Assembly (NCBI RefSeq): GCF_026126405.1
Contig: NZ_JAFMTQ010000002.1
Span: forward strand, 124,001-188,000
Reading direction: 5' to 3'
DNA length: 64,000 nucleotides
Origin: Aureitalea sp. L0-47
GTDB lineage: Bacteria; Bacteroidota; Bacteroidia; Flavobacteriales; Flavobacteriaceae
The position numbers and the translations under genes are program-made. Below, one piece after another: positions 26,170-41,966 of this stretch. The notes beneath the pieces are model-generated. The model had not been told where the DNA came from. It ran no database searches and was given only the letters and a program-made list of their open reading frames with translations. The number at the start of each line of letters is the position of its first letter. Positions within the stretch are counted from its first letter, which is position 1.

Positions 26170-26178
26170 ATCATCTGC

Positions 26179-26424: not shown

Positions 26425-26516
26425 ATCAGTATTTTTTCGAAAAAAATTACAATTTCATAACCTTCAACACCATTAATCCTGTAACTTTATCCATTATTAA
26501 TTTATTTATTTTTACA

Positions 26517-26714: not shown

Positions 26715-26740
26715 GATATATCACAACTAACTTTATTTTC

Positions 26741-26772
26741 ACTCCTCTGCTTGCCAGGGGAGTTTTCTTTTT
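26741..26772 (+). terminator. Intrinsic terminator after the cold-shock gene
   Basis: ACTCCTCTG at 26741-26749 pairs with CAGGGGAGT at 26755-26763 (one T-G wobble), and a T-rich run follows. Confidence 0.88.
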
Positions 26773-27038
26773 TATCCTTTCTGAACTATTTATCGCTCAA
26801 TGGTTTAAGAAATTGTGATGTAACATAATACAACATACTTTAAATTTTTTCACTGAAACAATACCAGCATCTCCTGAAATTGCCTATGAGATTCCGAATC
26901 GAGTTCGGAATGACAAATCTGGACGCTACGTTATAAAATTGTCCTTATCAACGAATAAACAAATCCACAAATAAACGTATGCTACTGTCATCCGAAACGC
27001 CCGTACTGAGGGTAGTCGAAGTATGATTCAGCATCCCA
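26773..27038. repeat. Intergenic region with dispersed-repeat-like palindromes
   Basis: No gene is seen here. ATTCCGAA at 26891-26898 and TTCGGAAT at 26904-26911 form a perfect 8-bp stem with a TCGAG loop, followed by GACA. A second block at 26988-27030 contains GTCATCC and CTGAGGGTAGTCGAAG. Both look like the short palindromic repeats often scattered between flavobacterial genes. With only one copy of each in this window, dispersal cannot be shown here. Confidence 0.55.
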
Positions 27039-27488
27039 TCAGTTCAGGTTCCGCTTCTCAATGAAAAACCGCTTCAGCAATTCGGATGCTTCCATTTCCA
27101 TCACACCACCTGTCATTTTTGTTTTCGGATGCAGCTTTGTCCCCATGGCAATGCAACCGCGTTGCTCGTCCCTGGCGCCATAGACTATTTTCGATATCTG
27201 ACTCCAGTATAAAGCCCCAGCGCACATTTGGCAGGGCTCGATCGTGACATAAAGCGTACAATCCTTCAAATACTTGCCACCCAGAAAATTAGCCGCAGCA
27301 GTGATCGCCTGCATTTCGGCGTGAGCAGTGACGTCGTTTAAGGTCTCGGTGAGATTGTGGGCACGCGCTATGATCTTGTCTTTCACTACCACCACAGCAC
27401 CGATAGGAATTTCTCCCTTTTCATAGGCATCCTGGGCTTCCTGTAGTGCCTTTTTCATGAAGTAGGTATCGTCGAAAGGTTTGATCAT
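27039..27488 (-). CDS. tadA: tRNA-specific adenosine deaminase (TadA)
   Basis: This 149-residue zinc enzyme of the cytidine deaminase fold converts adenosine 34 to inosine in tRNA-Arg(ACG). The zinc site is His56 and Glu58 in HAEMQAI together with Cys86 and Cys89 in EPCQMCAGAL. The ARAHN and DVTAHAEM context and the length fit TadA rather than guanine deaminase. It stands alone on the minus strand. Its upstream region (27489-27550) holds an 8-bp repeat cluster. Confidence 0.93.
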   Translation of the reverse strand: MIKPFDDTYFMKKALQEAQDAYEKGEIPIGAVVVVKDKIIARAHNLTETLNDVTAHAEMQAITAAANFLGGKYLKDCTLYVTIEPCQMCAGALYWSQISKIVYGARDEQRGCIAMGTKLHPKTKMTGGVMEMEASELLKRFFIEKRNLN

Positions 27489-27509
27489 TGTTTCCTTTGA
27501 TTGTTTAAA

Positions 27510-27549
27510 GGTTATGTGGTTATAAGGTTATGTGGTTATAAGGTTATGA
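27510..27549. repeat. Degenerate 8-bp tandem repeat (GGTTATGT / GGTTATAA), 5 units
   Basis: Five consecutive 8-mers read GGTTATGT, GGTTATAA, GGTTATGT, GGTTATAA and GGTTATGA. The array is 22 bp upstream of the tadA start on the opposite strand. Confidence 0.9.
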
Positions 27550-27632
27550 GTTTAGCTTTTATTTGTTTGGGAGTTTCTCAAACCATTTAGCATTGATGTT
27601 ATTTCTGAAATCTCAAGCCTAAGCTCGTTTAA

Positions 27633-27664
27633 CTCCTAAACTCCTAAACTCCTAAACTCCTAAA
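27633..27664. repeat. Perfect 8-bp tandem repeat CTCCTAAA, 4 units
   Basis: Four identical copies of CTCCTAAA run from 27633 to 27664 and are followed by CTCAAA. The array ends where the -33 part of the dxs promoter should be. Confidence 0.93.
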
Positions 27665-27687
27665 CTCAAATATACAATTTCAAAGCG

Positions 27688-27695
27688 TATCTTTG
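27688..27695 (+). promoter_or_regulatory. -7 element of dxs
   Basis: TATCTTTG is a perfect match to TAnnTTTG and lies 4 bp before the GTG start codon, so the dxs transcript is predicted to be leaderless or nearly so. Confidence 0.7.
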
Positions 27696-27699
27696 CGGG

Positions 27700-29472
27700 G
27701 TGTCGAAAAACCTCCTGGATACCATTAATACAGTCGAAGACCTTCGAAAACTTCCGAAGGAAAAACTCCCGCAACTCGCCTCCGAATTGCGCGACTTCAT
27801 CATTAATATCGTAGCTACCAAAGAAGGCCATTTGGGTGCCAGCTTGGGCGTGATCGAACTTACCATCGCCCTTCACTATGTCTTTAACACCCCCGATGAT
27901 CTACTTGTCTGGGATGTTGGTCACCAGGCTTACGGACATAAAATTCTTACCGGTAGACGTGATCTGTTTCACACCAATCGGAAACTAGGCGGCATCAGCG
28001 GCTTTCCGAAGCATGGTGAAAGTGAATTCGACACCTTCGGAACGGGCCACAGCTCCACGGCAATCTCAGCCGTGCTGGGAATGGCAATTGCTTCGCAATT
28101 GACATCTGCTGCCTCCAGGCAGCACATTGCCGTGGTGGGAGACGCCTCCATCGCAAGCGGAATGGCGTTTGAAGCCCTCAATCACGCCGGAGTGACCAAA
28201 ACCAATATCCTCGTGATCCTGAACGACAATGCCATCGGGATTGATCCCAGTGTAGGTTCTCTCAAGGAATACCTTACCAAAGTGACACTGGAAGACGCAC
28301 CCGATACCGACAATATCTTCGAAGCGCTCAATTTTAATTATTCCGGCCCAATAGACGGGCACGATCTGGATGCTCTTATCCCTGAATTGGAACGTCTTAG
28401 ATCTGTTGAAGGCCCAAAATTGCTTCACATAATTACAAAAAAGGGGAAAGGACTGAAGCAAGCGGAAGAAAACCAGGTAGCGTATCACGCTCCGGGGAAA
28501 TTCGATGCGGCCACGGGGGATATCATTCCGAAGGAAACAAAACATCTTCCTCCCAAATACCAGGATGTCTTTGGAAAAACCCTGGTTGAACTTGCCGAAA
28601 AAAACGATAAGATCGTCGGTATCACCCCCGCCATGCCCACAGGAAGTTCCCTGAAATTCATGATGGAGCGCTTCCCGGAACGTGCCTTCGATGTTGGCAT
28701 CGCCGAACAGCACGCGGTAACCTTCGCCGCCGGACTGGCCACCCAGGGGATGATCGTTTACTGTAATATCTATTCTACCTTTCTTCAACGTGCCTACGAC
28801 CAGGTGATCCACGACGTCTGCCTTCAAAACTTACCTGTTATCTTTTGCCTGGATCGCGCCGGGATCGTTGGGGAAGATGGAGCTACGCACCACGGGATCT
28901 TCGACCTGGCCTACCTTCGCTGCATCCCTAATCTAACAATCGCAGCGCCGGCAGATGCTATTGAACTTCGGAACTTGCTCCACACTGCACAGAAAGGACT
29001 GAAACAACCTATCGCCATACGTTATCCTCGCGGAAGAGGTCATATCACCGAATGGCAGGTACCATTTTCAGAAATTGAAATGGAAAAAGGGAGAAAATTA
29101 AAAGAAGGAAGCGAAATTGCCATCCTCTCCATCGGAACTATGGCAAATACTGTTTCCGAAGCGATTTCGGGAATGGAGGATTCCAGGAATATAGGTCATT
29201 TCGATATGCGTTTTGTAAAACCCCTGGATGAGGAATTACTTCACAAGATATTCAGGTCATACCCAACCATCGTTACTGTGGAAGACGGAGTGAAAATGGG
29301 TGGTTTTGGAAGTGCGGTATCTGAGTTTGCCACGGAATACAACTACAACAATTTACTGAAGATCATAGGTATCCCCGACCAATTCCCCGAACACGGTAGC
29401 GTGGAGGAACTTCATGATCTATGTGGGATATCTTCAGAAAAAATTAGAAAGCTTATACAATCCCTGCTCTAA
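27700..29472 (+). CDS. dxs: 1-deoxy-D-xylulose-5-phosphate synthase
   Basis: This 590-residue thiamine diphosphate enzyme joins pyruvate and glyceraldehyde 3-phosphate in the first step of the MEP isoprenoid pathway. The thiamine-binding motif is GDASIASGMAFEALNHAG through NDN, and the GHQAYGHKILTGR segment carries the family histidines. A transketolase-like pyrimidine domain (about 275-435, with AEQHAVTFAAGLA and DRAGIVGEDGATHHG) and a C-terminal domain follow. It starts with GTG at 27700. Its 3' end overlaps the convergent dGTPase gene by 4 bp. Length is slightly below the usual 620, because the inter-domain linker is short. Confidence 0.96.
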   Translation: MSKNLLDTINTVEDLRKLPKEKLPQLASELRDFIINIVATKEGHLGASLGVIELTIALHYVFNTPDDLLVWDVGHQAYGHKILTGRRDLFHTNRKLGGISGFPKHGESEFDTFGTGHSSTAISAVLGMAIASQLTSAASRQHIAVVGDASIASGMAFEALNHAGVTKTNILVILNDNAIGIDPSVGSLKEYLTKVTLEDAPDTDNIFEALNFNYSGPIDGHDLDALIPELERLRSVEGPKLLHIITKKGKGLKQAEENQVAYHAPGKFDAATGDIIPKETKHLPPKYQDVFGKTLVELAEKNDKIVGITPAMPTGSSLKFMMERFPERAFDVGIAEQHAVTFAAGLATQGMIVYCNIYSTFLQRAYDQVIHDVCLQNLPVIFCLDRAGIVGEDGATHHGIFDLAYLRCIPNLTIAAPADAIELRNLLHTAQKGLKQPIAIRYPRGRGHITEWQVPFSEIEMEKGRKLKEGSEIAILSIGTMANTVSEAISGMEDSRNIGHFDMRFVKPLDEELLHKIFRSYPTIVTVEDGVKMGGFGSAVSEFATEYNYNNLLKIIGIPDQFPEHGSVEELHDLCGISSEKIRKLIQSLL

Positions 29473-30809
29473 AGATCTCCTTTTATTTTCCTGAATAACT
29501 GAAGTGCATTCCCATCGGTTAGCATGGCAATATAGCTGCAGCAAAACATCAGGTATTCGTAGGTAGTAGCTTCCTCGGGCAGCGGTGTGTCCAGCCCTCG
29601 TAATATAAGAGTATCGAAATGCGTCGCCCTGCCATTGAAGTGATTCTCGCAGGCCGTTGTGAACGCGTCGAGTAGGGTGGTAAGGATATTGTAACCCGCG
29701 ATCTCCTTTTCAACCACTTCATGGCTTCGGTAGATCTTCTGAATACTTTCTGAAATGATATCGTCGATCTGCGCCTTGTACCTGCTATGATCCAAAAGTG
29801 CCTCACTGAAATCGCCTTTCAGAATAGCTTCCTCATTCGCGATAAACACCTCAACAGCTTCCGAGATAAGTGTGCCAATGGCAAGTGATCTTAGGTAAGC
29901 GAGTCGGTCTTTGGTTTGAGTAAGCGCGGTATAGTTCTCGGTATTGATACGATCCTTCACCAGGTTGATAAGGAATTCCAGTGCCGTTTCTTCGGCTATC
30001 CACCCTAAATTAATTCCGTCCTCAAAATCGATAATGGTGTAGCAGATATCATCCGCCGCTTCAACAAGATACGCCAGCGGATGACGGCAATAACTAAGAT
30101 CTTGTCCTGTTCCTCTTTTTAGAAGTCCGAGTGTCTCAGCAACCTCTTCGAAGAACGATCGTTCCGATTGAAAAAACCCGAACTTTTTGTCGGCAATGTG
30201 GCTTGTAGGTTTCTTCGGAAGGGATTCCTTGGGGTATTTGGTGAAAGCACCAAGAGTGGCGTAAGTGAGTCGGAGGCCACCTCGTACCCCGTTTTTACTT
30301 TCCGTGAGTATTTTGAAACCATTCGCATTACCCTCAAAATCGATAAGATCCTGGTATTCTTTTTCCGAAAGCAATTCCCTGAACCGCTTCCCTTTTCCAT
30401 CCTTGAAATAACTCCCAATGGCCTTCTCTCCGCTATGTCCGAAAGGCGGATTACCGATATCGTGCGCCAGTGAGGCCGCAGCAACGATAGCACCAAAATC
30501 ATTCACTTCAAAGCCGTGCACTTTAGCCAGGTAGGGGTGTTTGTTGATAATGGCACTTCCCACCTGTCTCCCCAGCGAACGTCCCACAACGGAAACTTCA
30601 AGACTATGTGTTAAACGGGTATGGACAAAGGACGTTTGGGAGAGGGGTATTACCTGTGTTTTATCCTGAAGGCTTCGGAAGGCAGCCGAGAAGATAATGC
30701 GGTCGTAATCCACTTCGAAACCGCTGCGTGTCTGGTCTTCTTCAACCCGAATCCGCTTTTTCTTATCGCCTTGTTTCTGAAGTGATAAAAGTTGCTCCCA
30801 TTGCATCAT
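29469..30809 (-). CDS. dgt: Deoxyguanosinetriphosphate triphosphohydrolase (dGTPase)
   Basis: This 446-residue HD-domain enzyme hydrolyses dGTP, or several dNTPs, to nucleoside and tripolyphosphate. The metal site is visible in RLTHSLEV and SLAHDIGNPPFGHSGEKAI, and a further conserved aspartate lies in EAADDICYTIIDFEDG. The length fits the bacterial dGTPase type 2 family. It overlaps dxs tail to tail by 4 bp. Its presence with nrdAB and dCMP deaminase elsewhere in the window is consistent with control of dNTP pools but does not imply a shared operon. Confidence 0.93.
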   Translation of the reverse strand: MMQWEQLLSLQKQGDKKKRIRVEEDQTRSGFEVDYDRIIFSAAFRSLQDKTQVIPLSQTSFVHTRLTHSLEVSVVGRSLGRQVGSAIINKHPYLAKVHGFEVNDFGAIVAAASLAHDIGNPPFGHSGEKAIGSYFKDGKGKRFRELLSEKEYQDLIDFEGNANGFKILTESKNGVRGGLRLTYATLGAFTKYPKESLPKKPTSHIADKKFGFFQSERSFFEEVAETLGLLKRGTGQDLSYCRHPLAYLVEAADDICYTIIDFEDGINLGWIAEETALEFLINLVKDRINTENYTALTQTKDRLAYLRSLAIGTLISEAVEVFIANEEAILKGDFSEALLDHSRYKAQIDDIISESIQKIYRSHEVVEKEIAGYNILTTLLDAFTTACENHFNGRATHFDTLILRGLDTPLPEEATTYEYLMFCCSYIAMLTDGNALQLFRKIKGDL

Positions 30810-30882
30810 ATTCTGTGGAATTTTATTAGGCTAAAGATACTATAATCCATTTGTTCAGCCGAAAAGGTTTTCGATAGGCTAT

Positions 30883-30937
30883 TTAACTTTCAGGTAACAT
30901 TCAAATGACGAATACTTAATCTGCACCTAACACCGAC
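30883..30937 (+). promoter_or_regulatory. Candidate Pho-like box A, five 11-bp repeats
   Basis: Five consecutive 11-mers begin TTAACTT, GTAACAT, ATGACGA, TTAATCT and CTAACAC (starts 30883, 30894, 30905, 30916, 30927). The last two lie 37 and 26 bp before the start of the predicted -7 element (TTTCTTTG at 30953-30960) of the downstream TonB receptor. The repeat spacing equals one DNA turn, as expected for tandem binding of an OmpR/PhoB-type regulator. Confidence 0.6.
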
Positions 30938-30969
30938 TTTACATTGTGGCGGTTTCTTTGCCAAGTATT

Positions 30970-33768
30970 ATGACAACAACAATGAAGAACATCTTTACGC
31001 TTATTTTCTTATGTTTAGCGAGCATCACTTTCGCCCAATCTACAGGGTCGATTGTGGGAAAATTAACAGACAAGGACTACAACAACGAACCGTTATCGTT
31101 CGCAAATGTATTCATTAAAGGGACTTCTACAGGTACTACTTCAGATTTTGATGGGTTATATGAATTGGCGAATCTTCAGCCCGGGACTTACACGGTAGTC
31201 TTCAGTTTCGTGGGATATGAGACTATAGAGATGCCTAATGTAACGGTTGAAGCTGATAAAGTAACAACTATAAATGTCCCTATGGGGGCAAGTGCTGCGG
31301 CTCTGGATGAGATCATAGTTCGAACAACTACCAGAAAGGAAAGTGAAGTAGCACTTCTATTGGAGCAAAAGAATGCCACGTCTATTAAACAGAGTATCGG
31401 AGCAGAAGAGCTAGCGAGAAAAGGAGTTGGTGACGCTGCAGGTGCGGTTTCAAAGATCTCCGGGATCAGTCAGCAAGAAGGAGGAAACAATGTTTATGTA
31501 AGAGGTTTAGGAGACCGTTACCTGAATACAACCTACAATGGCCTGTCCATGCCTTCCAATGATATTGAAAAGAAAAATATAGACCTCAACCTCTTCTCCT
31601 CTGATGTTATTCAGAATGTTTCTGTGAGCAAGGCGTATGCTTCCCAGTTTTATGGTGACTTCGCCGCGGGTAACGTAAACATTCTTGCCAAGGAATACAG
31701 TGGAAAGACTTTTGTAAATCTCGATATAAGCACCGGATTCAATTCCCGAGCCCTTGGTGAGGACTTTGTGAAAAGCGAAGGAAGCAGCAAATTCGGATTT
31801 TACAATCGTTACGACAACAATCCGTTTGCAGTTTTACTTTCTCACGGCCTCGATCCTGTAGATGCCGGATCTCCTGTGAATTATACGGGGGCATTTTCAG
31901 GAGGGACGTCATTCAATTTCGAAAACGGATCTAAATTATCGTTATTCGGAACCGCATCCTTCGACAATGGTTTTGAGATTCGAAAGGGACCAGCTGTTGA
32001 CTTCACAACCGTTGAAAAGAAGAGTTTCCCTAATTCGGAAGAATTCGAATACTCAACTACCACTACTGCGATGGCCAATATCATCTATCGCATAGACCAG
32101 GAAAACAAAGTATCCTACAATTCTTTGTTCATTAACAGTAGTAGTGATAAAGTTCAATATTTCGGAACGGAAGGACAAGGTAGGAATCGTGATGCCATAT
32201 TGGACACGGACAAAGGGTTCTACCAGATGAACGTTCAGTTCGACCAGGATATGATCTTTGTAAATCAGCTTCTTGGGGAACACACACTGTCCGACAATAT
32301 TGAATTCGACTGGGGTGCAGGATATAATGTTGTTGACGCGCGCCAACCGGACCGAAGAAGGATCAGTGTAGAACAATACGACCTCGCTTTGGATAATGAT
32401 CCAACAACTCAACCAAGCTTTTTCAATAATATCGTTTTCGATAACCAAAGATATTTCCAGGAAATAGAAGACAAGGAATGGAACGGTAGAATGAATATGG
32501 GCATTACCCTTTCAGAAACAGTAAAACTGGACGTTGGTTACAACGGAAGAAGCAAGGAACGTACTTTTGAGAACATTCGTTATGGGTACGATTTCATCGA
32601 GCCTAATACCCCGGTGGAGGACGTCTTCAACGTAGACAGTATATTTTCAGTAGAAAACCTCGGGGTGGTATACAACACCTTTGTATTTAACCCGCTTGAT
32701 CCTACAAACGGCCTTGGGAGTACTAACCTTCCCGGAAATCCTGAAAATACGTATACCGGAAATCTTGACATACATGCAGGATACGTAGGTTCTACTTTTA
32801 CCTTTGGTGATAAATGGACAGTTGTGCCCGGTGTGCGGGTAGAATCCCTTCAGCAGGAGATTACTTATGACGTGATCAACCTGATCTCGACGGATCCTGG
32901 ATTCAGAGAAGCGAGTGAAGTATATGTACTACCTAGTTTGAATGTTCGCTACGGATTGAACGAAGATCAGAATCTAAGGTTCTCATTCAGTAAAACTGTT
33001 TCCTTCCCTGAATTCAAAGAAGTAGCTCCTTTCGTTTATGAAGACGTTACGCAACGAATTGGTGGAAACCCGGACCTGCTAAGCGACCCTTCGTTCTCTG
33101 AGATTTACAATATCGATCTGAAATACGAATGGTTCTTAAGCAGCAATGAGTTATTATCTCTAGCCGCTTTCGCCAAGCAGATCAATGATCCGGTGAACAA
33201 GGTGATCGCAAATGATGCCACCGGTACTCAGAGATTCTTCAGAACAGGTGATAAGGCCGAGGTGATTGGAGTGGAACTTGAAGTTCGCAAGAACCTTTTG
33301 AAAGATTCAGATGACAACCAGGTTCTTTCGGCCGGATTCAATGCAACCTATATGCATACGGAGCAAGACCTGAAAGAATCAACTGGCATCTTCACAACCA
33401 CTTTCGACAGGGATACTGAAGAATTACAAGGAGCGTCTCCGATAATTCTGAATGCCGATCTGAACTATAGCCCGGAGTTTGAAAACTACAAACCTGTGGC
33501 CAACCTGGTGTTCTCTTATTTCAGTGACAGAATTGACGCCATTGGTGCCGGACAACTTGGAAACATCGTTGAACGCGGAGTACCTACACTGGACTTCGTA
33601 ATGAAAAATAAAATTGGTGAGCACTTCGAAGTAAATGCCGCTGCCATGAACATCCTGGACCCAACCATCGAACGTACTCGTGAGACCGGAACGGAACTGG
33701 GTGACATAGCATTGTCCAAATACAAGAGAGGTATAAACCTATCACTACAATTGAAATATAACTTTTAA
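30970..33768 (+). CDS. TonB-dependent receptor, candidate phosphate-responsive
   Basis: The ATG at 30970 gives a 932-residue outer-membrane receptor; ATG 30982 is an alternative and the GTG at 30946 would overlap the promoter. It has a signal peptide (ITFAQS), a carboxypeptidase-like domain (about 25-110, VGKLTDKDYNNEPLSFANVFIKG), a plug (about 125-245, with NVYVRGLGDRYLNTTYNG) and a long barrel ending LQLKYNF. The plug carries the pattern of receptors that act without a SusD partner. The next gene, 20 bp downstream, encodes a surface-type lipoprotein. A Pho-like box lies upstream, so I infer uptake of a phosphate-containing compound; the substrate is unknown. Confidence 0.92.
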   Translation: MTTTMKNIFTLIFLCLASITFAQSTGSIVGKLTDKDYNNEPLSFANVFIKGTSTGTTSDFDGLYELANLQPGTYTVVFSFVGYETIEMPNVTVEADKVTTINVPMGASAAALDEIIVRTTTRKESEVALLLEQKNATSIKQSIGAEELARKGVGDAAGAVSKISGISQQEGGNNVYVRGLGDRYLNTTYNGLSMPSNDIEKKNIDLNLFSSDVIQNVSVSKAYASQFYGDFAAGNVNILAKEYSGKTFVNLDISTGFNSRALGEDFVKSEGSSKFGFYNRYDNNPFAVLLSHGLDPVDAGSPVNYTGAFSGGTSFNFENGSKLSLFGTASFDNGFEIRKGPAVDFTTVEKKSFPNSEEFEYSTTTTAMANIIYRIDQENKVSYNSLFINSSSDKVQYFGTEGQGRNRDAILDTDKGFYQMNVQFDQDMIFVNQLLGEHTLSDNIEFDWGAGYNVVDARQPDRRRISVEQYDLALDNDPTTQPSFFNNIVFDNQRYFQEIEDKEWNGRMNMGITLSETVKLDVGYNGRSKERTFENIRYGYDFIEPNTPVEDVFNVDSIFSVENLGVVYNTFVFNPLDPTNGLGSTNLPGNPENTYTGNLDIHAGYVGSTFTFGDKWTVVPGVRVESLQQEITYDVINLISTDPGFREASEVYVLPSLNVRYGLNEDQNLRFSFSKTVSFPEFKEVAPFVYEDVTQRIGGNPDLLSDPSFSEIYNIDLKYEWFLSSNELLSLAAFAKQINDPVNKVIANDATGTQRFFRTGDKAEVIGVELEVRKNLLKDSDDNQVLSAGFNATYMHTEQDLKESTGIFTTTFDRDTEELQGASPIILNADLNYSPEFENYKPVANLVFSYFSDRIDAIGAGQLGNIVERGVPTLDFVMKNKIGEHFEVNAAAMNILDPTIERTRETGTELGDIALSKYKRGINLSLQLKYNF

Positions 33769-33788
33769 ACTATAAAATTTCTACACTC

Positions 33789-34964
33789 ATGAAAAAATTG
33801 ACTCTAATCCTCATTGCAGTACTGGGCGTCTTTGTTTGGTCCTGTGAAAGTGATGATACAGCAGATATCATTATTGAAAATAATACCGGCGGTGGTGGCG
33901 GTGGTACTACGCCTACTTCAAGCAACATCGGTGGAACGCAAACTGCCGACTTAACCTTGGAGATCGGCCAGGAATATATTCTTACCGAAGCATTGATCAT
34001 GTCTGCAGGTACTACATTAACGATCCCTGCAGGTGTAGTGATCAAAGCAAATCCAGGAGCCGGGGTATACATTGCTATCGCTCAGGACGCTACCATCATT
34101 GCTGAAGGAACCAGTTCAAGCCCAATTGTTCTTACATCTAATGTGGCCACTCCTGCTGCAGGAGACTGGGGAGGACTCATCGTCTTAGGAAGAGCTCCAA
34201 TCAACTCTGTGGCCGGCGGAAACGCAACTTCCACGAGTGAGATTGGCGGACTTCCATACGGAGGAAGCAACACAGGAGATAATTCAGGAATAATCAGATA
34301 CCTGCGAGTAGAGTACTCGGGAGGTGCGGCAGATGCTTCTTCTGAAAACAATGGATTCTCATTCTACGGTGTTGGTAATGGTACTACCATTGAATTCATC
34401 CAGGCATTCGAAGGAAAAGATGATGGGATCGAGTTCTTCGGAGGTACAGTTAACGCAAGCAATTTATCTGTGATTGGAGCGCAGGACGATTCTGTGGACT
34501 GGACAGAAGGATTCTCAGGGACTTTAACCGATGTGTATATTGAGCACAGAGTTGAGCATGATAAAGGAATTGAAGCAGATGGATTCAATACAGATATCGG
34601 GAACAACTCAAGTCCAGTATTCTGGTCTAAGCCAATCGTTAATAACCTAACGATCATAGGACGTGGTTCAGCTACAGGCAACGAAGCAGTTCGTCTAAGA
34701 GCGGGAACTCAGGGTCTTTTCACGAATGTTTTAATTCAAGGGTTCGAAGAAGCATTCGATCTAGATGCTGAAGGAAGTGAGCCAACCGGACAAGGTGTTA
34801 TAGACGGAGACCTGCGTGTGACCGATGTAACATTTGTAGATGTTCTTGTAAAGATGAAGAATGATACGGGTGTAGTTTTTGACGAGTCTGATTTTATCTT
34901 CGGAGATGGAAACGGCACCGGTACAGACTACAACTCCTGGAACGGCGGATGGACGCGTAACTAA
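33789..34964 (+). CDS. Surface-type lipoprotein with beta-helix-like repeats
   Basis: This 391-residue protein has a lipoprotein signal ending VWSC with the cysteine at about residue 19. The acidic ESDD directly after it resembles the export tag of surface-exposed Bacteroidetes lipoproteins. A Gly run and a Thr/Ser linker follow. The body is rich in Gly, Asn, Thr and Val with short repeated strands (LTIPAGVVIKANPGAGVYI, PIVLTSN, GDWGGLIVLGRAPIN, IRYLRVEYSGG, NLTIIGRG), consistent with a right-handed beta-helix. Acidic Asp/Glu patches (GKDDGIEFFGG, AQDDSVDW) could bind metal. There is no recognised catalytic motif. It is surely cotranscribed with the TonB receptor 20 bp upstream and probably captures or processes its ligand. 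Confidence 0.83.
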   Translation: MKKLTLILIAVLGVFVWSCESDDTADIIIENNTGGGGGGTTPTSSNIGGTQTADLTLEIGQEYILTEALIMSAGTTLTIPAGVVIKANPGAGVYIAIAQDATIIAEGTSSSPIVLTSNVATPAAGDWGGLIVLGRAPINSVAGGNATSTSEIGGLPYGGSNTGDNSGIIRYLRVEYSGGAADASSENNGFSFYGVGNGTTIEFIQAFEGKDDGIEFFGGTVNASNLSVIGAQDDSVDWTEGFSGTLTDVYIEHRVEHDKGIEADGFNTDIGNNSSPVFWSKPIVNNLTIIGRGSATGNEAVRLRAGTQGLFTNVLIQGFEEAFDLDAEGSEPTGQGVIDGDLRVTDVTFVDVLVKMKNDTGVVFDESDFIFGDGNGTGTDYNSWNGGWTRN

Positions 34965-34981
34965 TTATTTGTTAGCCAAAC

Positions 34982-35012
34982 AAAAAAAGGCTCCCGATGG
35001 GAGCCTTTTTTT
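34982..35012. terminator. Strong bidirectional terminator
   Basis: GGCTCCC at 34989-34995 pairs with GGGAGCC at 34999-35005, flanked by A7 on the left and T7 on the right. It separates the receptor-lipoprotein operon from the convergent gene at 35030. Confidence 0.95.
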
Positions 35013-35029
35013 GTTTTTTAAACCTCGAT

Positions 35030-35413
35030 TTATTGACTAACTAATCTTGAATCTTCAAATTTCCAGGTTTTGACTTCCGCAATTCGAGAATCATTATATT
35101 TTACTTCCTTCATAAGCTCACCCTGGTAAAACAACCACGTACCAACTTTTTTACCGTCATCATATTGAGCAATGGCAGTTTTGTTTCCGTTGACATCATA
35201 ACTTATCCATTCTCCTTGTAGTTTGTTTTCCTCAGTGTAATAACCTGTTTGGGCTATTTCACCATTTTCGTGATACAAGGTGGCCTTGATTAGGCCATCA
35301 GCTAATTCATAGCTATTCTTTTTACAGGTCTTCTTGCAGGTCGTTTGGCACTCCTGTGCGATTGCCGTATTTGCAGCAAAGACAATTACTAGTAATAGGA
35401 TTACTTTTTTCAT
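35030..35413 (-). CDS. Secreted MORN/YwqK-type repeat protein
   Basis: The 127-residue product has a signal peptide (residues 1-19, NTAIAQ), a cysteine cluster (ECQTTCKKTCKKN) and three imperfect repeats of the type YxxNGxxxxxGxY (ATLYHENGEIAQTGYY, QGEWISYDVNGNKTAIAQY, KVGTWLFYQGELMKEVKY). These are the YwqK-like or MORN-like repeats often annotated as toxin-antitoxin YwqK, although no toxin is adjacent and no antitoxin role is supported. The minus-strand promoter element TATCTTTG is at 35446-35453. A Pho-like box lies 30 bp further upstream and might act on this gene as well. Confidence 0.85.
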   Translation of the reverse strand: MKKVILLLVIVFAANTAIAQECQTTCKKTCKKNSYELADGLIKATLYHENGEIAQTGYYTEENKLQGEWISYDVNGNKTAIAQYDDGKKVGTWLFYQGELMKEVKYNDSRIAEVKTWKFEDSRLVSQ

Positions 35414-35445
35414 AATAAAATGGGTTTTTTAACTGTCGACCATTC

Positions 35446-35453
35446 CAAAGATA
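35446..35453 (-). promoter_or_regulatory. -7 element of the MORN/YwqK gene
   Basis: On the minus strand this reads TATCTTTG, a perfect TAnnTTTG match, 33 bp ahead of the ATG at 35413. Confidence 0.65.
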
Positions 35454-35483
35454 AAAAAGAAGTAACAATTATGAAAGGTTTAC

Positions 35484-35529
35484 ATAACAATTTGGTAACA
35501 TTAACTATATAATCACCTGTTTATCATTG
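35484..35529 (+). promoter_or_regulatory. Candidate Pho-like box B and -7 element, no gene to its right
   Basis: ATAACAATTTG at 35484-35494 and GTAACATTAAC at 35495-35505 are head-to-tail 11-mers. TATCATTG at 35522-35529 starts 38 and 27 bp after the two repeats. A 19-base word, ACATAACAATTTGGTAACA (35482-35500), recurs exactly at 37081-37099 in box D. Confidence 0.55.
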
Positions 35530-35534
35530 TTTTA

Positions 35535-35732
35535 AATAAAATCATTTAACATTCAGAATATAATTTTTAAAGTAATTCTTAATGTTTATTTAATAATTCC
35601 TTCACGCTATAACTACATCACAGGTCTTATTTTGTACTGTCTTTAATAGACATACATCTTCAGAAAATCGTAAAGTTTTTGTCGACTAGATTTCTAAGAT
35701 GGAAGCCACTTACTTGTAGGTGGCTTTTTTTA
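35535..35732 (+). ncRNA. Candidate small RNA between box B and a terminator
   Basis: A transcript from box B would start near 35535 and stop at the terminator 35704-35731, giving about 200 nt; a second -7-like element (35627-35634) would give a short form of about 90 nt from about 35640. The stretch has no usable ORF: the ATG at 35582 runs four codons to a stop, and the ATG at 35698 is followed by only five more codons before a stop. The terminator lies 105 bp upstream of the porin gene and ahead of that gene's own box and promoter, so this is not simply a porin leader. No known RNA family was recognised. Confidence 0.45.
35704..35731 (+). terminator. Intrinsic terminator of the candidate small RNA
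   Basis: AGCCACTTAC pairs with GTAGGTGGCT (one wobble), with the top 6 bp AGCCAC/GTGGCT perfect, followed by a run of seven T. No protein gene ends just upstream, so the terminator needs a non-coding transcript to explain it. Confidence 0.88.
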
Positions 35733-35772
35733 TAAATAAACTCAGGAGATAGCGATAAATCACACATTAAAG

Positions 35773-35817
35773 TTAATCTTTAGGAAACATTAACTTAACA
35801 TTAAGGTTGGTTCTTTG
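35773..35817 (+). promoter_or_regulatory. Candidate Pho-like box C and porin promoter
   Basis: The 11-mers TTAATCTTTAG (35773), GAAACATTAAC (35784) and TTAACATTAAG (35795) are contiguous. The predicted -7 element GTTCTTTG starts at 35810, which is 37, 26 and 15 bp after the three repeats. The porin ATG is at 35846. Confidence 0.62.
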
Positions 35818-35845
35818 TAGCGACAAAAACTTTAACGATTTCTAG

Positions 35846-37072
35846 ATGAAACAACCTTACCTAACCCTATTAATGGTGCTGTTTATCCTTGGCACTAGTA
35901 CAGCACAAGAAATTAGCGACACTTCTTTTGGCAAAGGCATGATAAACTTTGTTGCAAAAGACAGTTCGTTCAGTGTGAAATTTGCACCTAGAATGCAGGT
36001 GCGATACAATGCAATTTGGGACCATGATGGCGATAATTATGGTAGTGCCGAATATAACTTCCTAGTAAGAAGGGCGCGTTTGAAATTCGACGGTTATGCC
36101 TTTTCTCCAAAATTGGTTTATAAGATTGAGCTTGGATTATCCAACAGAGATATTAGTGGCGCTACCCAGTTCAATCGCAACACTCCACGATATATCCTCG
36201 ATGCCGTTATCAAGTGGAATTTTTATGAGAATTTTGAATTATGGGCTGGTCAAACCAAATTACCCGGTAACGTAGAACGAGTTGTTTCTTCCGGTAATTT
36301 GCAATTTATCGACCGTTCTATCTTGAACAGTCGGTTCAATATTGACCGTGATATGGGGATTCAATTGCGTCACAATGCGAACTTGGGCGGAGATTTCTTC
36401 ATTCGCGAAAAAATTGCGCTCTCACAAGGTGAAGGTCGAAACATAACTCAGGGAAATGAAGGTGGGTTACAATACACCGCCAGGCTAGAACTTCTCCCAT
36501 TCGGTAAATTTCAATCTAAAGGTGATTACTCTCAAAGTGACCTCAAGCGTGAGCCAAAACCAAAACTAATGGTTGCAGCCACCTACGATTACAACCAGGA
36601 CGCAGTAAAAACAAGGAGTAACCTGGGAAGCTATATGCTATTAAGTGACGGTTCACTCTATGAAACAGATCAGACCACCATTTTTGTGGATGCCATGTTC
36701 AAATACAAAGGTTTCTCCTTCGCTGGTGAATATGCCAACCGCGATGCCGATAATCCTGTAGCGGTGGAAGCGAATGGTACGCCCGCACTTGATGGTGACG
36801 GAAATCCAACAGGAGATGTTGTTTTGGTTGGTAGTTCAGTAAATTTACAGGCTGCTTATTTATTCAAGAATAATTACGAAATTGCTGGTCGATTTACCAC
36901 GGCTGACTATGATGACATCACAGGGCGTGCAATGGAAGAACAATATACGCTGGGTGTTTCGAAATACGTTGTAGGTCACAAGCTAAAAGTTCAATCCGAT
37001 TTTACCTACGGAACTGCTGCGGCTGACGCTGATTTCCTGCAGTTTAGAATTGGATTCGACGTGCACCTATAA
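35846..37072 (+). CDS. OprP/OprO-like phosphate-selective porin
   Basis: This 408-residue outer-membrane protein has a signal peptide (residues 1-20, STAQE) and the porin O/P pattern. The features are an early FAPRMQVRYNAIWD strand, VRRARLKFDGYAFSPKLVYKIELG, ELWAGQTKLPGNVERV, and DRDMGIQLRHNA. These are conserved among Bacteroidetes members of the phosphate-selective porin family. The family forms anion channels for phosphate or polyphosphate in Pseudomonas; selectivity in this relative is inferred. It is 77 bp upstream of a PiT-type transporter and carries a Pho-like box, which supports the phosphate role. Confidence 0.9.
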   Translation: MKQPYLTLLMVLFILGTSTAQEISDTSFGKGMINFVAKDSSFSVKFAPRMQVRYNAIWDHDGDNYGSAEYNFLVRRARLKFDGYAFSPKLVYKIELGLSNRDISGATQFNRNTPRYILDAVIKWNFYENFELWAGQTKLPGNVERVVSSGNLQFIDRSILNSRFNIDRDMGIQLRHNANLGGDFFIREKIALSQGEGRNITQGNEGGLQYTARLELLPFGKFQSKGDYSQSDLKREPKPKLMVAATYDYNQDAVKTRSNLGSYMLLSDGSLYETDQTTIFVDAMFKYKGFSFAGEYANRDADNPVAVEANGTPALDGDGNPTGDVVLVGSSVNLQAAYLFKNNYEIAGRFTTADYDDITGRAMEEQYTLGVSKYVVGHKLKVQSDFTYGTAAADADFLQFRIGFDVHL

Positions 37073-37082
37073 AGTAGAAGAC

Positions 37083-37127
37083 ATAACAATTTGGTAACAG
37101 ATGACCATTGAATAATTAAGACATTTG
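37083..37127 (+). promoter_or_regulatory. Candidate Pho-like box D and phosphate transporter promoter
   Basis: ATAACAATTTG (37083) and GTAACAGATGA (37094) are contiguous 11-mers. The -7-like GACATTTG starts at 37120, exactly 37 and 26 bp after them. The ATG is at 37150. The box lies only 10 bp after the porin stop. Confidence 0.6.
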
Positions 37128-37149
37128 TGCCAGTTTATTACTGAAAATT

Positions 37150-39393
37150 ATGGACAATATTTACTTATTAATGATAGTAGCGCTTGCTATACTCGCTATT
37201 GCCGATTTGGTTGTAGGTGTAAGTAATGATGCTATTAACTTCCTGAATTCGGCTATTGGATCTAAGGCCATTCCATTCAAGACAATCATGATCATAGCAA
37301 GTCTCGGAATCTTCGTGGGAGCTATATCATCCAGTGGATTAATGGAAGTAGCAAGAAAAGGAATTTTCGTTCCGGGGGAGTTCTATTTCGATGAGATCAT
37401 GATCATTTTCATGGCTGTGATGATCACAGATATTCTATTATTGGACTTCTTCAATACGCTTGGATTACCTACCTCCACTACTGTTTCAATCGTATTCGAA
37501 TTACTGGGAGCAGCCGTTGTGATGTCTTTGATAAAGATCAGTAATTCAGATACCGCCGTATTAGGCGATCTTGGAAATTATATCAATACGGCCAAGGCAA
37601 TGGAGATAATTTCAGGAATACTACTGTCTGTAGTTATTGCATTCTCCGTGGGTGCTCTGGTTCAATATATTTCCCGATTGATATTTACATTTCATTACGA
37701 AAAGAAAATTAAGAACTTCGGGGCTCTCTTCGGTGGAGTGGCACTTACAGCCATTACGTATTTCATCTTTATGAAAGGGCTGAAAGGAACACCGTATTAC
37801 GGAGACATGAAAGATGTCCTGGAGGGCAACGAAATAATTATCATTGTGGTAAGCTTTGTAGTTTGGACCTTGCTATCCATGCTTTACATGAATGTTTTGA
37901 AAAAGAACATTTTGATCATTGTAATTGCAGTTGGTACTTTCGGTCTGGCTCTGGCTTTCTCCGGAAACGACCTTGTTAACTTCATCGGGGTGCCAATGGC
38001 AGCCTTCCACTCTTACGAAGCATGGTCGGTATCGGGAGTTGAAGCTACAGCATTCTCCATGGATGTACTCGACAAAAAAGTACCTGCCGAACCATTGTTG
38101 TTATTCATTGCAGGTGGTGTAATGGTTGTTACTTTATGGTTCTCTAAAAAAGCGCGGACAGTTGCTGATACCGAGATCGGACTTGCAACCCAAGATGAGA
38201 CCAAGGAGAAATTCAAACCTAATATGCTTTCGAGAGCCGTAGTTAAAGGAAGTACGAAATTAGCTTCTATGCTTGGTTTGATGATACCAAATTCTACACA
38301 GGCAAAGATCAATGCGAGTTTCGAGAAACCAGTTGTAACTCTACCTAAACACAAAACATACGAACTTCCAGCGTTCGACCAGATTCGTGCTTCAGTAAAC
38401 TTAATGGTAGCAGGGATCTTAATATCGATCGCTACCTCTATGAAGTTACCATTATCAACTACCTATGTAACATTTATGGTAGCAATGGGTACATCACTGG
38501 CCGATAGAGCATGGGGACGTGAAAGTGCGGTTTACAGAGTAGCCGGGGTATTAAATGTAATTGGAGGCTGGTTCTTTACAGCATTCAGTGCATTTGTTGC
38601 AGCCGGAACACTGGCGTACCTGATCTATCTTGGAAAAGCTCCTATGATTGCCGTGTTACTGCTCGTCGCAGTTATATTGCTTATCAGAAACTACATTTCT
38701 CACAAGAAAAAATCCAAAGTGATTATTGAGCCTGATGAATTAAAGAAAGCGGAAAGCAGCACAGTTCAGGGGATTATTGAGGAAAGCGCCGATAATATAG
38801 CGAAAGCTGCATCCAGGACATATAAAATATACTCCTCTATCATTAATGGACTAGCAAAAGAGGATGAATCAAAACTTAAGAAAAGCAGGCTTAAGGTGGA
38901 TCAGCTTTCTGAAGAGGTTGACGAACTCAGAAATAATATCTTCTACTTCATTAAGAACTTGGATGAGACCAGTGTTAGGGGAAGTAATTTCTATATCATG
39001 GTGTTGGCATACCTGACCGATGTTACCCAGTCTCTGGAATATATCGCGAAAGTGAGTTATAAACACGTTCATAATAACCATAAGAAACTTAGATTCAACC
39101 AGATCAAGGATCTTCAGTTTATCGACTCTTCGTTTGAACATTTGCTGAAAGATATTCAGTCGATATTTAAGGAGCGTGAATTCGATAAATTAGAGGATAT
39201 CCTTATTCGCAAACAAAAGGCTTTTGGGGATATATCCGAAATGATCGAGAAGCAAATCACGAGAACCCGTGATGAAGAATCTAGTCCGAAGAACACCACA
39301 CTTTACTTCAGTTTGTTACTGGAGACCAAAGACCTTGTAACTGCTCTCATGAACTTAATGGAAGAGTATTATAAGAGCCATAAAAGTTCATAA
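37150..39393 (+). CDS. PiT-type inorganic phosphate transporter with PhoU-like C-terminus
   Basis: This 747-residue inner-membrane protein has two PiT halves, each with the family signature. The first is GVSNDAINFLNSAIGSKAIPFKTIMIIASLGIFVGA described by its GVSNDAINFLNSAIGS core, with LPTSTTVSIVFE; the second is FSGNDLVNFIGVPMAAFHSYEAW with LPLSTTYVTFMVAMG. About a dozen membrane helices span 1-520. A cytoplasmic helical domain (about 535-745) of about 210 residues resembles PhoU. A PiT protein with a fused PhoU-like tail is a known variant in Bacteroidetes. The gene follows the OprP-like porin, so the two could pass phosphate across both membranes. It is convergent with the Na/Pi cotransporter. 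Confidence 0.93.
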   Translation: MDNIYLLMIVALAILAIADLVVGVSNDAINFLNSAIGSKAIPFKTIMIIASLGIFVGAISSSGLMEVARKGIFVPGEFYFDEIMIIFMAVMITDILLLDFFNTLGLPTSTTVSIVFELLGAAVVMSLIKISNSDTAVLGDLGNYINTAKAMEIISGILLSVVIAFSVGALVQYISRLIFTFHYEKKIKNFGALFGGVALTAITYFIFMKGLKGTPYYGDMKDVLEGNEIIIIVVSFVVWTLLSMLYMNVLKKNILIIVIAVGTFGLALAFSGNDLVNFIGVPMAAFHSYEAWSVSGVEATAFSMDVLDKKVPAEPLLLFIAGGVMVVTLWFSKKARTVADTEIGLATQDETKEKFKPNMLSRAVVKGSTKLASMLGLMIPNSTQAKINASFEKPVVTLPKHKTYELPAFDQIRASVNLMVAGILISIATSMKLPLSTTYVTFMVAMGTSLADRAWGRESAVYRVAGVLNVIGGWFFTAFSAFVAAGTLAYLIYLGKAPMIAVLLLVAVILLIRNYISHKKKSKVIIEPDELKKAESSTVQGIIEESADNIAKAASRTYKIYSSIINGLAKEDESKLKKSRLKVDQLSEEVDELRNNIFYFIKNLDETSVRGSNFYIMVLAYLTDVTQSLEYIAKVSYKHVHNNHKKLRFNQIKDLQFIDSSFEHLLKDIQSIFKEREFDKLEDILIRKQKAFGDISEMIEKQITRTRDEESSPKNTTLYFSLLLETKDLVTALMNLMEEYYKSHKSS

Positions 39394-39406
39394 ATAAGAA
39401 TCCTAC

Positions 39407-39431
39407 GAAAGCCCCACAAGTTGGGGCTTTC
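39407..39431. terminator. Bidirectional terminator between two phosphate transporters
   Basis: GAAAGCCCCA pairs with TGGGGCTTTC around a 5-base loop, with T-rich sequence to the right, between the convergent PiT and Na/Pi genes. Confidence 0.92.
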
Positions 39432-39434
39432 TTT

Positions 39435-41186
39435 TTAGTTCTTCTTATTATTTTCGAATAGAGGATCTCGTTCACCGTAGAGGAGATCGGCTATTGTAAT
39501 CAGCTTCTTTATTGTATCATTCACATTGTCTCGGTCGTTTACCAAAGAGGATCCCATATCAACGGTGATTAATCCCTCTCTTATCAATCGTTCAATGGAA
39601 TCACTTGCAGAGTGTATTTCCCCTTTGGCGGCATCTCGCAAGGTCATGAGCTTAGCATGGTAGATTTCCTTGTCCTTTTTTGTTCTGAAACGATAGATCA
39701 CCCGAAGAACCTTAGCTATTTTCTTTCTGAACTTGTAATACTCTTTTTGCACATGCTCATTCCCAGATTCCGAATACTTAGAAATGTTAGGAGCAATTTC
39801 CTTCATATTCCGAAGGATTTCTACCATCTTTCTATTAGCAAGCCTGATTTCTGATACGTGATCATTCTGCTTTTGTGTCAATTTGAAATTTGTTTGTGCC
39901 AGGGAAGCATATCGCAATATTTCTCCATATATCTTCTTCACTTTCGTATGGTAAAGCTCTTCTACATCAATGCCCATATCCCGGGTTGATCGTTTTACGA
40001 TTTCCTTAATCTTCTCATCCGATTTAATATCGGCTCTATGAATATTCATCGAGTGAGCAACAATCTCATAAACGGCCTTTTTAAATAGATATTTAGACTC
40101 TTTTTCAAGAGAAATGATGGCGGTTTCAGGATACTTAAGTGTGTCCTTCGACAAGAATTTTGGTTCGTCGATTTCTTTTTCCGGTAGTAGTTTAACCGGC
40201 ACGATTCTTTCAACAAGCCTGGCTATTGGCTTAACAAACCAAACTAACAGGAATGTATTGCAAATGTTGAATATGGTGTGGAAAAGTGAAATAGCCACAG
40301 GAATAGCTGCAGCGCTAATATAGGGTGATTCAGACCCTGTTTCCTGAGCTATCCAACTCACCATTTTCAGAAATGGATAGAATAAAACCAGCACCCAGAA
40401 AACACCAATGAGGTTGAACATCAAATGTGCACGTGCCGTTCGTTTTGCGTGGTAATTCGCAACAATTGCTGCAATATTAGCTGTGATCGTTGTACCAATA
40501 TTCTCACCCAGAACCATTGCGGCTGCCAGTTCAAAGGGAATCCATCCCTGTGCGGTCATTATTAACGTAAGTGCCATAGTAGCACTTGACGACTGAATAA
40601 TAACCGTGAGCAATGTCCCTATGAAAAGAAAAATGAGCACAGACCAAAAACCAAGGTCGGTGTAGCGCTTTAAGAATTCAAGCATTTCGGGATTGTCATT
40701 GACGTTAGGGACCGCTTCTTTTAGAAACTGTAGCCCTATGAACAATACCGCAAACCCAATAATAAAGGTTCCCCAGTTCTTTAATTGCTCCTTTTTTGCG
40801 AAGGTAAAGGCAAATCCAAAGCCTACCAATGGGAGTGCAATGGCGCTCATACTTACTTTAAACCCTAAAATTGTAATAAGCCAGGCAGTAATCGTGGTAC
40901 CAATGTTGGCACCCATGATCACACTTATAGACTCAGTGAGCGTTAATAGGGACGCATTGGAAAAGCTAACCACCATGAGAGTGGTGGCAGACGAAGATTG
41001 AATTACTGATGTTATAGTGAACCCGGTTAAAATACCGAAAAACCTGTTGGAGGTCATGGTTGCCAGGATCCTTCGCATTCTATTCCCAGCCAACTTCATT
41101 AACGCATCACTCATCACCATCATTCCGAAGAGGAACAAACCCAGCGAACCAAATAACTGCAACAACTCGGTAAAACCGTAATTCAT
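39435..41186 (-). CDS. Na/Pi cotransporter family protein with PhoU-like domain
   Basis: The ATG at 41186 gives 583 residues; an upstream start at 41219 adds 11 residues before the first helix and looks unlikely. The membrane half (about 1-310) contains two NptA-type repeats with the QSSSATT and QSSSATM motifs that define the Na/Pi cotransporter (PF02690) family, and GANIGTT and GENIGTT loops. The C-terminal half (about 340-575) is helical and PhoU-like, as in YjbB-type proteins. In E. coli the related YjbB exports phosphate, so direction is uncertain. It has its own promoter-like element (GATATTTG on the minus strand, 41217-41224) and no Pho-like repeats that I could find. Confidence 0.92.
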   Translation of the reverse strand: MNYGFTELLQLFGSLGLFLFGMMVMSDALMKLAGNRMRRILATMTSNRFFGILTGFTITSVIQSSSATTLMVVSFSNASLLTLTESISVIMGANIGTTITAWLITILGFKVSMSAIALPLVGFGFAFTFAKKEQLKNWGTFIIGFAVLFIGLQFLKEAVPNVNDNPEMLEFLKRYTDLGFWSVLIFLFIGTLLTVIIQSSSATMALTLIMTAQGWIPFELAAAMVLGENIGTTITANIAAIVANYHAKRTARAHLMFNLIGVFWVLVLFYPFLKMVSWIAQETGSESPYISAAAIPVAISLFHTIFNICNTFLLVWFVKPIARLVERIVPVKLLPEKEIDEPKFLSKDTLKYPETAIISLEKESKYLFKKAVYEIVAHSMNIHRADIKSDEKIKEIVKRSTRDMGIDVEELYHTKVKKIYGEILRYASLAQTNFKLTQKQNDHVSEIRLANRKMVEILRNMKEIAPNISKYSESGNEHVQKEYYKFRKKIAKVLRVIYRFRTKKDKEIYHAKLMTLRDAAKGEIHSASDSIERLIREGLITVDMGSSLVNDRDNVNDTIKKLITIADLLYGERDPLFENNKKN

Positions 41187-41253
41187 AAAAAGCTTTTGTC
41201 GACCCGATAAAAGTAGCAAATATCTTATTTTAGAACATGATTATTCTCAACTT

Positions 41254-41949
41254 ATGAAATATCTGCTACTATTTACACTCTCATTTTTATGTGCCCTCCC
41301 CCTGTTTTCCCAGGAAATTAAAGGAAAAGAGCTACTTCGGAAATCTATAGAATATCACGATCCTCATAGTGCCTGGATGAAGTTCAGAGCTGAACTTTTC
41401 GTCACCATGGAGACACCTTCCGCGTCTCCAAGGTACAGCAATATAAAAATAGACCTTCCCAATGAATACTTTTATCTCAATGCCAGACGGGATACTACAG
41501 AGATCTCTTATACTATTGATAAAGGTAAATGTAAAACATCGATAATAGATTCCACTTCGATGCGCAGAATGCCTTGCGAAACAGCTAATCTGTATAAGAA
41601 TTACTATACCTATCTCTATGGACTCCCGATAAAACTCATGGATCCGGGAACAGAAGTTCATGATGAGGTTACCCTAGAAGAATTCAAAGGAAAACAGTAC
41701 CTCAGGCTGAAGGTCACCTATAACGAAACAGTGGGTAGTGACGTTTGGCTCTTCTATTTCGACCCAAAAACCTATGCAATGGAGATTTACCAATTCTTTA
41801 AAGGCGATCCAAAAAATGCAGGAAAGGATACTGGTGAATACATACTGCTTTCCGAAGAAAAGATTGTAAATGGTATTAAGATGCCTAAGGTACGGGCGTG
41901 GTATTATAACAAGAATGATGAGTACCTAGGGACGGATATACTTAACTAA
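41254..41949 (+). CDS. Secreted protein, tentatively DUF6503
   Basis: This 231-residue protein has a signal peptide (residues 1-20, LPLFSQE) and then the segment LLRKSIEYHDPHSAWMKF, which I associate with the DUF6503 family of exported flavobacterial proteins. The rest reads as antiparallel strands (VTMETPSASPRYSNIKIDLP, YFYLNARRDTTEISYTID, YLRLKVTYNETVGSDVWLFYF, VNGIKMPKVRAWYY) that resemble outer-membrane lipoprotein-carrier or LolA-like folds. The short gap to the divergent Na/Pi gene is 67 bp. The next gene, chrA, starts 17 bp after it and may be cotranscribed. No function is known to me. Confidence 0.78.
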   Translation: MKYLLLFTLSFLCALPLFSQEIKGKELLRKSIEYHDPHSAWMKFRAELFVTMETPSASPRYSNIKIDLPNEYFYLNARRDTTEISYTIDKGKCKTSIIDSTSMRRMPCETANLYKNYYTYLYGLPIKLMDPGTEVHDEVTLEEFKGKQYLRLKVTYNETVGSDVWLFYFDPKTYAMEIYQFFKGDPKNAGKDTGEYILLSEEKIVNGIKMPKVRAWYYNKNDEYLGTDILN

Positions 41950-41966
41950 ATAGCTTCGGAAGGGTT

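Follow-up and report, generated by a model that had tools for sequence, protein, structure and literature searches.

On the basis of the phase, conservation and co-variation described here, we consider it highly probable that the phosphate genes of Aureitalea sp. L0-47 are preceded by Flavobacteriaceae Pho boxes read by a PhoB regulator, and that a further box (box E) drives a small RNA (sRNA) that caps synthesis of the neighbouring porin. The boxes themselves are confirmed as real, well beyond chance; at the PiT, porin, TonB-receptor and sRNA promoters, their units start 4 + 11k bp before a -7 8-mer of the form NNnnTTTG.

The phosphate locus and its phased boxes

The genome of this member of the Flavobacteriaceae measures 3.38 Mb, and the window, that is, the whole stretch of 64,000 nucleotides that was analysed, corresponds to C22:124001-188000; positions below are those of the window unless a contig is named. 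The block runs from a TonB receptor through a lipoprotein, a divergent MORN-like gene, an OprP-like porin and a PiT transporter to a convergent Na/Pi cotransporter:

30982..33768, + strand: TonB-dependent receptor (ORF, Pfam)
33789..34964, + strand: lipoprotein of 391 aa, after the TonB receptor (synteny in relatives)
35030..35413, - strand: small divergent gene with a MORN-like repeat (below the Pfam cut-off; position conserved)
35846..37072, + strand: OprP/O-like porin (Porin_O_P; Pfam)
37150..39393, + strand: PHO4-family phosphate transporter of the PiT type, extended at length on its C-terminal side (Pfam)
39435..41219, - strand: Na/Pi cotransporter, convergent neighbour

Many relatives share the gene order dgt-like gene, TonB receptor, lipoprotein, MORN gene, porin, PiT. 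The TonB receptor probably starts at its second ATG (MKNIFTLIFLCLASITFAQ...), as judged from the signal peptide, and its transcript is predicted to start near 30965; the lipoprotein is without a Pfam or NCBIfam match. In F. psychrophilum, the element TAnnTTTG lies at -12 to -5 (PMC9723704). With offsets counted from the start of a unit to the start of the -7 element, the boxes and their promoters are the following:

30883..30948, + strand: box A, six contiguous 11-mers at offsets 70, 59, 48, 37, 26 and 15 (30883 TTAACTTTCAG, 30894 GTAACATTCAA, 30905 ATGACGAATAC, 30916 TTAATCTGCAC, 30927 CTAACACCGAC, 30938 TTTACATTGTG), from the sequence and the profile of 29 orthologous promoters
30953..30960, + strand: -7 element TTTCTTTG of the TonB-receptor promoter (TAnnTTTG precedent, phase profile)
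35462..35505, + strand: box B, four 11-mers at 35462, 35473, 35484 and 35495, between the MORN gene and the sRNA
35579..35611, + strand: box E, TTAATGTTTAT, TTAATAATTCC and TTCACGCTATA at offsets 48, 37 and 26 (sRNA promoters of relatives)
35627..35634, + strand: -7 element TTATTTTG of the sRNA promoter
35773..35805, + strand: box C, TTAATCTTTAG, GAAACATTAAC and TTAACATTAAG at offsets 37, 26 and 15
35810..35817, + strand: -7 element GTTCTTTG of the porin promoter
37083..37104, + strand: box D, ATAACAATTTG and GTAACAGATGA at offsets 37 and 26 (conservation in PiT upstream regions)
37120..37127, + strand: -7 element GACATTTG of the PiT promoter

The distances of 26 and 37 bp first noted for boxes A, C and D, each to an 8-mer ending in TTTG, hold when the coordinates are read directly, and the extents of the boxes needed partial revision. 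Box A, which had been drawn as five units (30883-30937), keeps its place and phase and gains a sixth unit at 30938. Box C keeps its 26/37 phase; a third unit at offset 15 (35795 TTAACATTAAG) had been passed over and is the best-scoring one, those at 26 (GAAACATTAAC) and 37 (TTAATCTTTAG) being less canonical. Box B, previously placed at 35484-35505, is indeed a conserved repeat box, with tandem units in about 30 relatives, but it comprises four units from 35462 and has a different downstream spacing: in relatives, NNNNNTTG lies 17 bp after the start of the last unit, not 15 or 16, and the promoter-like element behind the box in the window is ATCACCTG at 35512, at offset 17. The reading of box B as a promoter of the 26/37 type, with distances of 27 and 38 bp to a -7 element at 35522, finds no support, and was rejected because of this TTG spacing in relatives. 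Box E, with units starting at 35579, 35590 and 35601, is a fifth box that was absent from the earlier list of four. In the window, the unit scores of boxes A and E are low, which counts against the Pho-box reading below; in relatives, box E is clear.

The phase was examined at 110 PiT loci of Flavobacteriaceae, which yielded 107 distinct upstream regions. TAAC-N7-TAAC is present in 86 of the 107, and in 74 of those 86 NANNTTTG stands exactly 37 bp after the start of the first unit; the 11-bp spacing accounts for 87 TAAC-TAAC pairs, and no other spacing for more than 17. An 11-bp weight matrix trained on the PiT promoter units of other Flavobacteriaceae, with the window excluded, gave means of +2.4, +4.8 and +2.7 at offsets 15, 26 and 37 of 73 porin promoters, against about -17 elsewhere, means of -0.5, -2.7 and -2.9 at offsets 26, 37 and 48 of 60 sRNA promoters, and a comb of six peaks at 15, 26, 37, 48, 59 and 70 in 29 TonB-receptor promoters. 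These window-free peaks in three independent promoters bear out the earlier judgement that the shared phase is unlikely by chance. Scanning 248 kb of the genome's own DNA on both strands placed boxes D (26.1), C (21.4) and A (8.4) first among the phase-correct matches, the next scoring 7.5; at wrong phases the best scores reached up to 20.1, so that box A by itself would not stand out. Across 100 family genomes, the pattern TAACN7TAACN25TTTG had 355 matches, against 167 for the reversed control.

The candidate regulator

The proposal that these are Pho boxes read by a PhoB-type response regulator, already put forward in the earlier note, is supported, not proven; it draws on the phase at an alkaline phosphatase, the phoBR neighbourhood, the PhoB-less genomes and the box at the moxR/bat operon. 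The genome has one PhoB-like regulator of the OmpR family beside a PhoR-like kinase (C11:281198-282924, with phoB at C11:281198-281878), and orthologues of this regulator occur in 194 of 199 family genomes. PhoB is its best NCBIfam model, but both scores stay under the cut-off, a point against our reading (217.8 of 296.2 bits for TIGR02154 and 208.4 of 270 bits for NF053854), and the other full OmpR-family regulators of the genome are nearer to RprY or CtrA/PmrA models. In an Aquimarina (L107), phoBR lies directly downstream of PiT, and in another lineage (L078) phoB adjoins the TonB-receptor/lipoprotein pair. The genome's own alkaline phosphatase promoter carries ATAACTTCGCC-TTAACGAATAT exactly 37 and 26 bp before TAAATTTA, so that a phased box is present at a phosphate gene elsewhere in the genome; PhoX is absent from this genome. 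In four PhoB-less genomes, no box is seen at PiT, which, as the sample is small and some of these genomes are reduced, amounts to support and not to proof. At the phoB promoter no box faces phoB, which counts against our reading; the box near phoB points towards a LuxE-like gene, and autoregulation through a box was rejected.

In many genomes, one match to the exact phased pattern lies at the promoter of the moxR/bat operon, and in the genome studied here this promoter has units at 37 and 26. EMSA shows binding of the moxR promoter by the PhoB-like regulator (named PhoP) of Riemerella anatipestifer, from a related flavobacterial family; this PhoP has the core motif TTTAACA in 583 DAP-seq peaks and activates the moxR promoter, the moxR and bat genes dropping upon phoP deletion (PMC9603813). 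By analogy, this biochemistry supports the PhoB reading. R. anatipestifer PhoP has mainly non-phosphate targets, so that the motif may serve more than phosphate, which counts against our reading; the available part of the paper contains neither a -7 phase rule nor a unit number, nor PiT, porin or phosphatase targets, and the motif is likened there to that of ArcA (PMC9603813). With this motif in print, the earlier statement that there is no settled Pho box for flavobacteria stands only in qualified form. The phosphate regulon of F. johnsoniae unites a TonB receptor, a lipoprotein, OprP and phoBR in one cluster, mostly induced by phosphate starvation, with strong induction of the receptor and the lipoprotein; OprP is not induced there, which counts against our reading (PMC8115612). 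No sRNA is described in the available part of that paper, and its main text contains neither a Pho box nor a promoter analysis, the terms 'Pho box' and 'promoter' appearing 0 times (PMC8115612).

The probability that the repeats are merely chance words in A+T-rich intergenic DNA is negligible. TAACA words are frequent in these genomes, and a plain search of the genome for WTAACA-N5-DTAACA returned 10 matches, several of them intragenic, against 6 for the reversed control, so that this pattern was found insufficient alone and was set aside; however, the exact phase holds across tens of independent genera, as it does at three promoters outside the training set, and for boxes D, C and A phase conservation and the 248-kb matrix scan refute a chance origin. 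It is less far-fetched, though still improbable, that the boxes belong to another OmpR-family regulator (RprY-like or CtrA/PmrA-like) or to a broader stress response, the phosphate genes being one part of its regulon. OmpR-family regulators all favour direct repeats of roughly 10-11 bp, which counts for such a reading, as do the three further full OmpR-family regulators of the genome and the box borne by the moxR/bat operon. The R. anatipestifer PhoP regulon, broad and with an ArcA-like motif (PMC9603813), points the same way. Against it, the genes of boxes A to D are phosphate genes, the C11 regulator is the only one that is PhoB-like with a PhoR-like partner, a regulator of its type is co-located with the locus in L107 and L078, and the box is missing at PiT in the four PhoB-less genomes. 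We keep PhoB as the preferred reader of the boxes.

A predicted small RNA and the porin leader

Between boxes B and C lies a predicted sRNA, whose features and proposed target are as follows:

35639..35731, + strand: predicted sRNA of ~93 nt (fold, 42-sequence alignment, covariance model)
35702..35731, + strand: intrinsic terminator of the sRNA (double changes in relatives)
35822..35845, + strand: predicted 24-nt porin mRNA leader GACAAAAACTTTAACGATTTCTAG, complementary to the sRNA (duplex, ddG, cognate pairing)

The sRNA is laid out as a 5' hairpin, a central hairpin with the loop GUAAAGUUUUUGUCGACUA and the terminator. Its fold (35635-35731) has a z of -4.0 and is better than all 200 shuffles. 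Judged from its sequence, it would possess both a phased promoter (box E) and a co-varying terminator, the latter with double compensatory changes in 8 of 9 pairs among relatives, and it is presumably transcribed as a unit of its own. The covariance model scores 63.6 bits in this genome, and of 199 Flavobacteriaceae genomes 89 have a match of at least 45 bits; in the genomes that carry it, the sRNA is mostly single copy and close upstream of porin and PiT. Elsewhere in the class, matches stay at or below 42 bits, which is chance level, and Rfam has no relevant match in 30600-41400.

The sRNA loop GUAAAGUUUUUGUCG is complementary to GACAAAAACUUUAACGAUUUC, which, given the position of TAnnTTTG at -12 to -5 (PMC9723704), would be the very start of the porin mRNA. 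The loop complements the whole 24-nt porin leader, and loop and leader co-vary; cognate duplexes reach -25.8 kcal/mol and those with swapped partners -21.3 kcal/mol, a difference attained in 0 of 20,000 permutations, with kinship ignored. The energy of the full duplex was not significant as a test, 195 of 3000 random 60-mers being as good. Since plain duplex energy is not discriminating, the ddG with structures subtracted was used instead; it is -17.2 kcal/mol for the window pair, against -1.2 +/- 1.8 for random 60-mers of the same genome, of which 0 of 600 were as good. The 11-mer core is found at three places in the genome, namely the sRNA, the porin leader and one site antisense to a gene, so that the leader target is single. 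We lean towards the view that this is an undescribed Flavobacteriaceae sRNA family, driven by a Pho box and dedicated to the neighbouring porin through complete-leader pairing, such that PhoB would induce the porin and its brake together. The sRNA would likely act as a phosphate-induced antisense brake on the porin; its effect could also have the opposite sign, that is, protection of the porin mRNA end.

The complementarity could be accounted for in two other ways. Read-through from box B or E might yield one long transcript whose sRNA half folds onto the porin leader as a cis attenuator. The strand and order are constant in nearly all relatives and the upstream box B could yield longer transcripts, both in agreement with an attenuator, but a conserved terminator with a T-run stands ahead of box C, and there are separate promoters, a phased one for the sRNA and the porin's own; on these grounds we hold an attenuator to be unlikely. 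Far less credible is that the sRNA loop and the porin leader are not an RNA-RNA pair at all and represent the arms of an invertible promoter, switched by a recombinase in phase variation. In its favour, imperfect inverted repeats of about 20 bp lie on either side of the porin promoter, Bacteroidota commonly have invertible promoters, and recombination too would keep such arms alike. Nevertheless, the loci of about 60 relatives all have one orientation, with 0 flipped, and the hypothesis was rejected on this ground; the left arm also lies within a conserved hairpin followed by the co-varying terminator, and no recombinase is present among the ORFs of 26000-42000. An antisense sRNA directed at the porin leader is the reading that we carry into the scheme below.

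Proposed mechanism and relation to known systems

The phase, the conservation, the co-varying sRNA terminator and the complementarity between sRNA and leader are computational results, from which we infer PhoB binding, phosphate control of these promoters, transcription of the sRNA and the sign of its effect. Upon phosphate starvation, phosphorylated PhoB would bind the 11-bp units head-to-tail, at the core (A/T/G)TAACA; with units 4 + 11k bp before the -7 element, it would occupy the place of the -33 element, turn one fixed face of the helix towards the polymerase, and most likely recruit sigma-A polymerase to promoters that lack a good -33. PiT presents two units (k = 2-3), the porin three (1-3), the sRNA three (2-4) and the TonB receptor six (1-6), and the number and place of the units may set the strength and threshold of each promoter. 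The sRNA of box E would act as an antisense RNA: its loop would pair with the full length of the predicted porin leader and most likely block translation. The resulting incoherent feed-forward loop would set a ceiling on porin synthesis, with PiT and the receptor at full induction; since E is the weakest of the boxes, the sRNA may be made late and only then cap the porin.

Boxes of this kind are already known from E. coli and Bacillus, and the core motif has been published for one flavobacterium. The Pho box of E. coli PhoB consists of 11-bp direct repeats that, at phosphate genes, stand in for the upstream promoter element; its core is TGTCA, whereas that of the present boxes is TAACA, and the two-unit PiT box lies about 9 bp further upstream than the E. 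coli phoA box. The PhoP box of B. subtilis, made of several TTAACA-like direct repeats with a period of about 11 bp on one face upstream of the promoter, shares the repeat layout; it belongs to another phylum and sigma factor, whereas here the units are locked to TAnnTTTG. As for the sRNA, those of the MicF/MicC type in E. coli are encoded near porin genes and pair with the porin mRNA leader, whereas here pairing would cover the whole short leader, the target would be one and dedicated, and the regulator would be common to sRNA and target. The Rfp RNAs of F. psychrophilum are comparable in being Flavobacteriaceae small RNAs with their own transcription units and the same -7 element; unlike the sRNA described here, Rfp18 pairs with metalloprotease mRNAs (PMC9723704). 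Measured against open papers, the novelty appears to lie in the phase rule, in the use of several units per promoter and in the porin sRNA.

For the Flavobacteriaceae, which are major marine and soil degraders, this would provide a Pho box whose grammar (11-bp units, 4 + 11k) is testable and could serve to predict phosphate regulons in genomic and metagenomic sequence. This grammar would show how an OmpR-family activator fits the -33/-7 promoter of the Bacteroidota, and the locus suggests that one small RNA is matched to one porin target.

Box B and the predicted small RNA beside the phosphate genes

The region of box B (window 35462-35519) is conserved, and its spacing to the NNNNNTTG element lying downstream is 17, unlike that of the other boxes; a conserved TTGNTNATCAG-like stretch follows this element. 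Any transcript starting from box B may be a longer form of the small RNA. One relative (genome G122) carries two strong copies of this small RNA, at C1:1180742-1180840 and C1:1063474-1063573, the second of which is distant from PiT. In the TonB receptor reading frame there are two candidate ATG codons, at window 30970 and 30982 (region 30970-30984); judged from the predicted signal peptide, the ATG at 30982 would be the better match.

Boxes elsewhere in the genome

At an alkaline phosphatase gene (contig C67:28589, locus L216), a tandem with the same phasing, ATAACTTCGCC TTAACGAATAT, lies ahead of TAAATTTA. Phase-correct pattern matches are also found upstream of genes encoding an M16 peptidase (C10:11191, L184) and a pirin-like protein (C64:23496, L188). 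The DNA separating phoB from a divergently oriented LuxE-like gene holds a perfect box, ATAACAATTCGGTAACA (C11:281110-281126; L016 11110-11126); this box points away from phoB, and the nearest following TAnnTTTG is 75 bp beyond it, which places it outside the phase rule.

The moxR/bat operon

The promoter of the moxR/bat operon (C8:13741-13784, L183) contains a phased TTAACC-TTAACA box, whose units are located 37 and 26 bp upstream of CAATTTG-like -7 elements and which is also present in many genomes of the family. The phosphate regulator may thus also control this aerotolerance operon across the Flavobacteriaceae.
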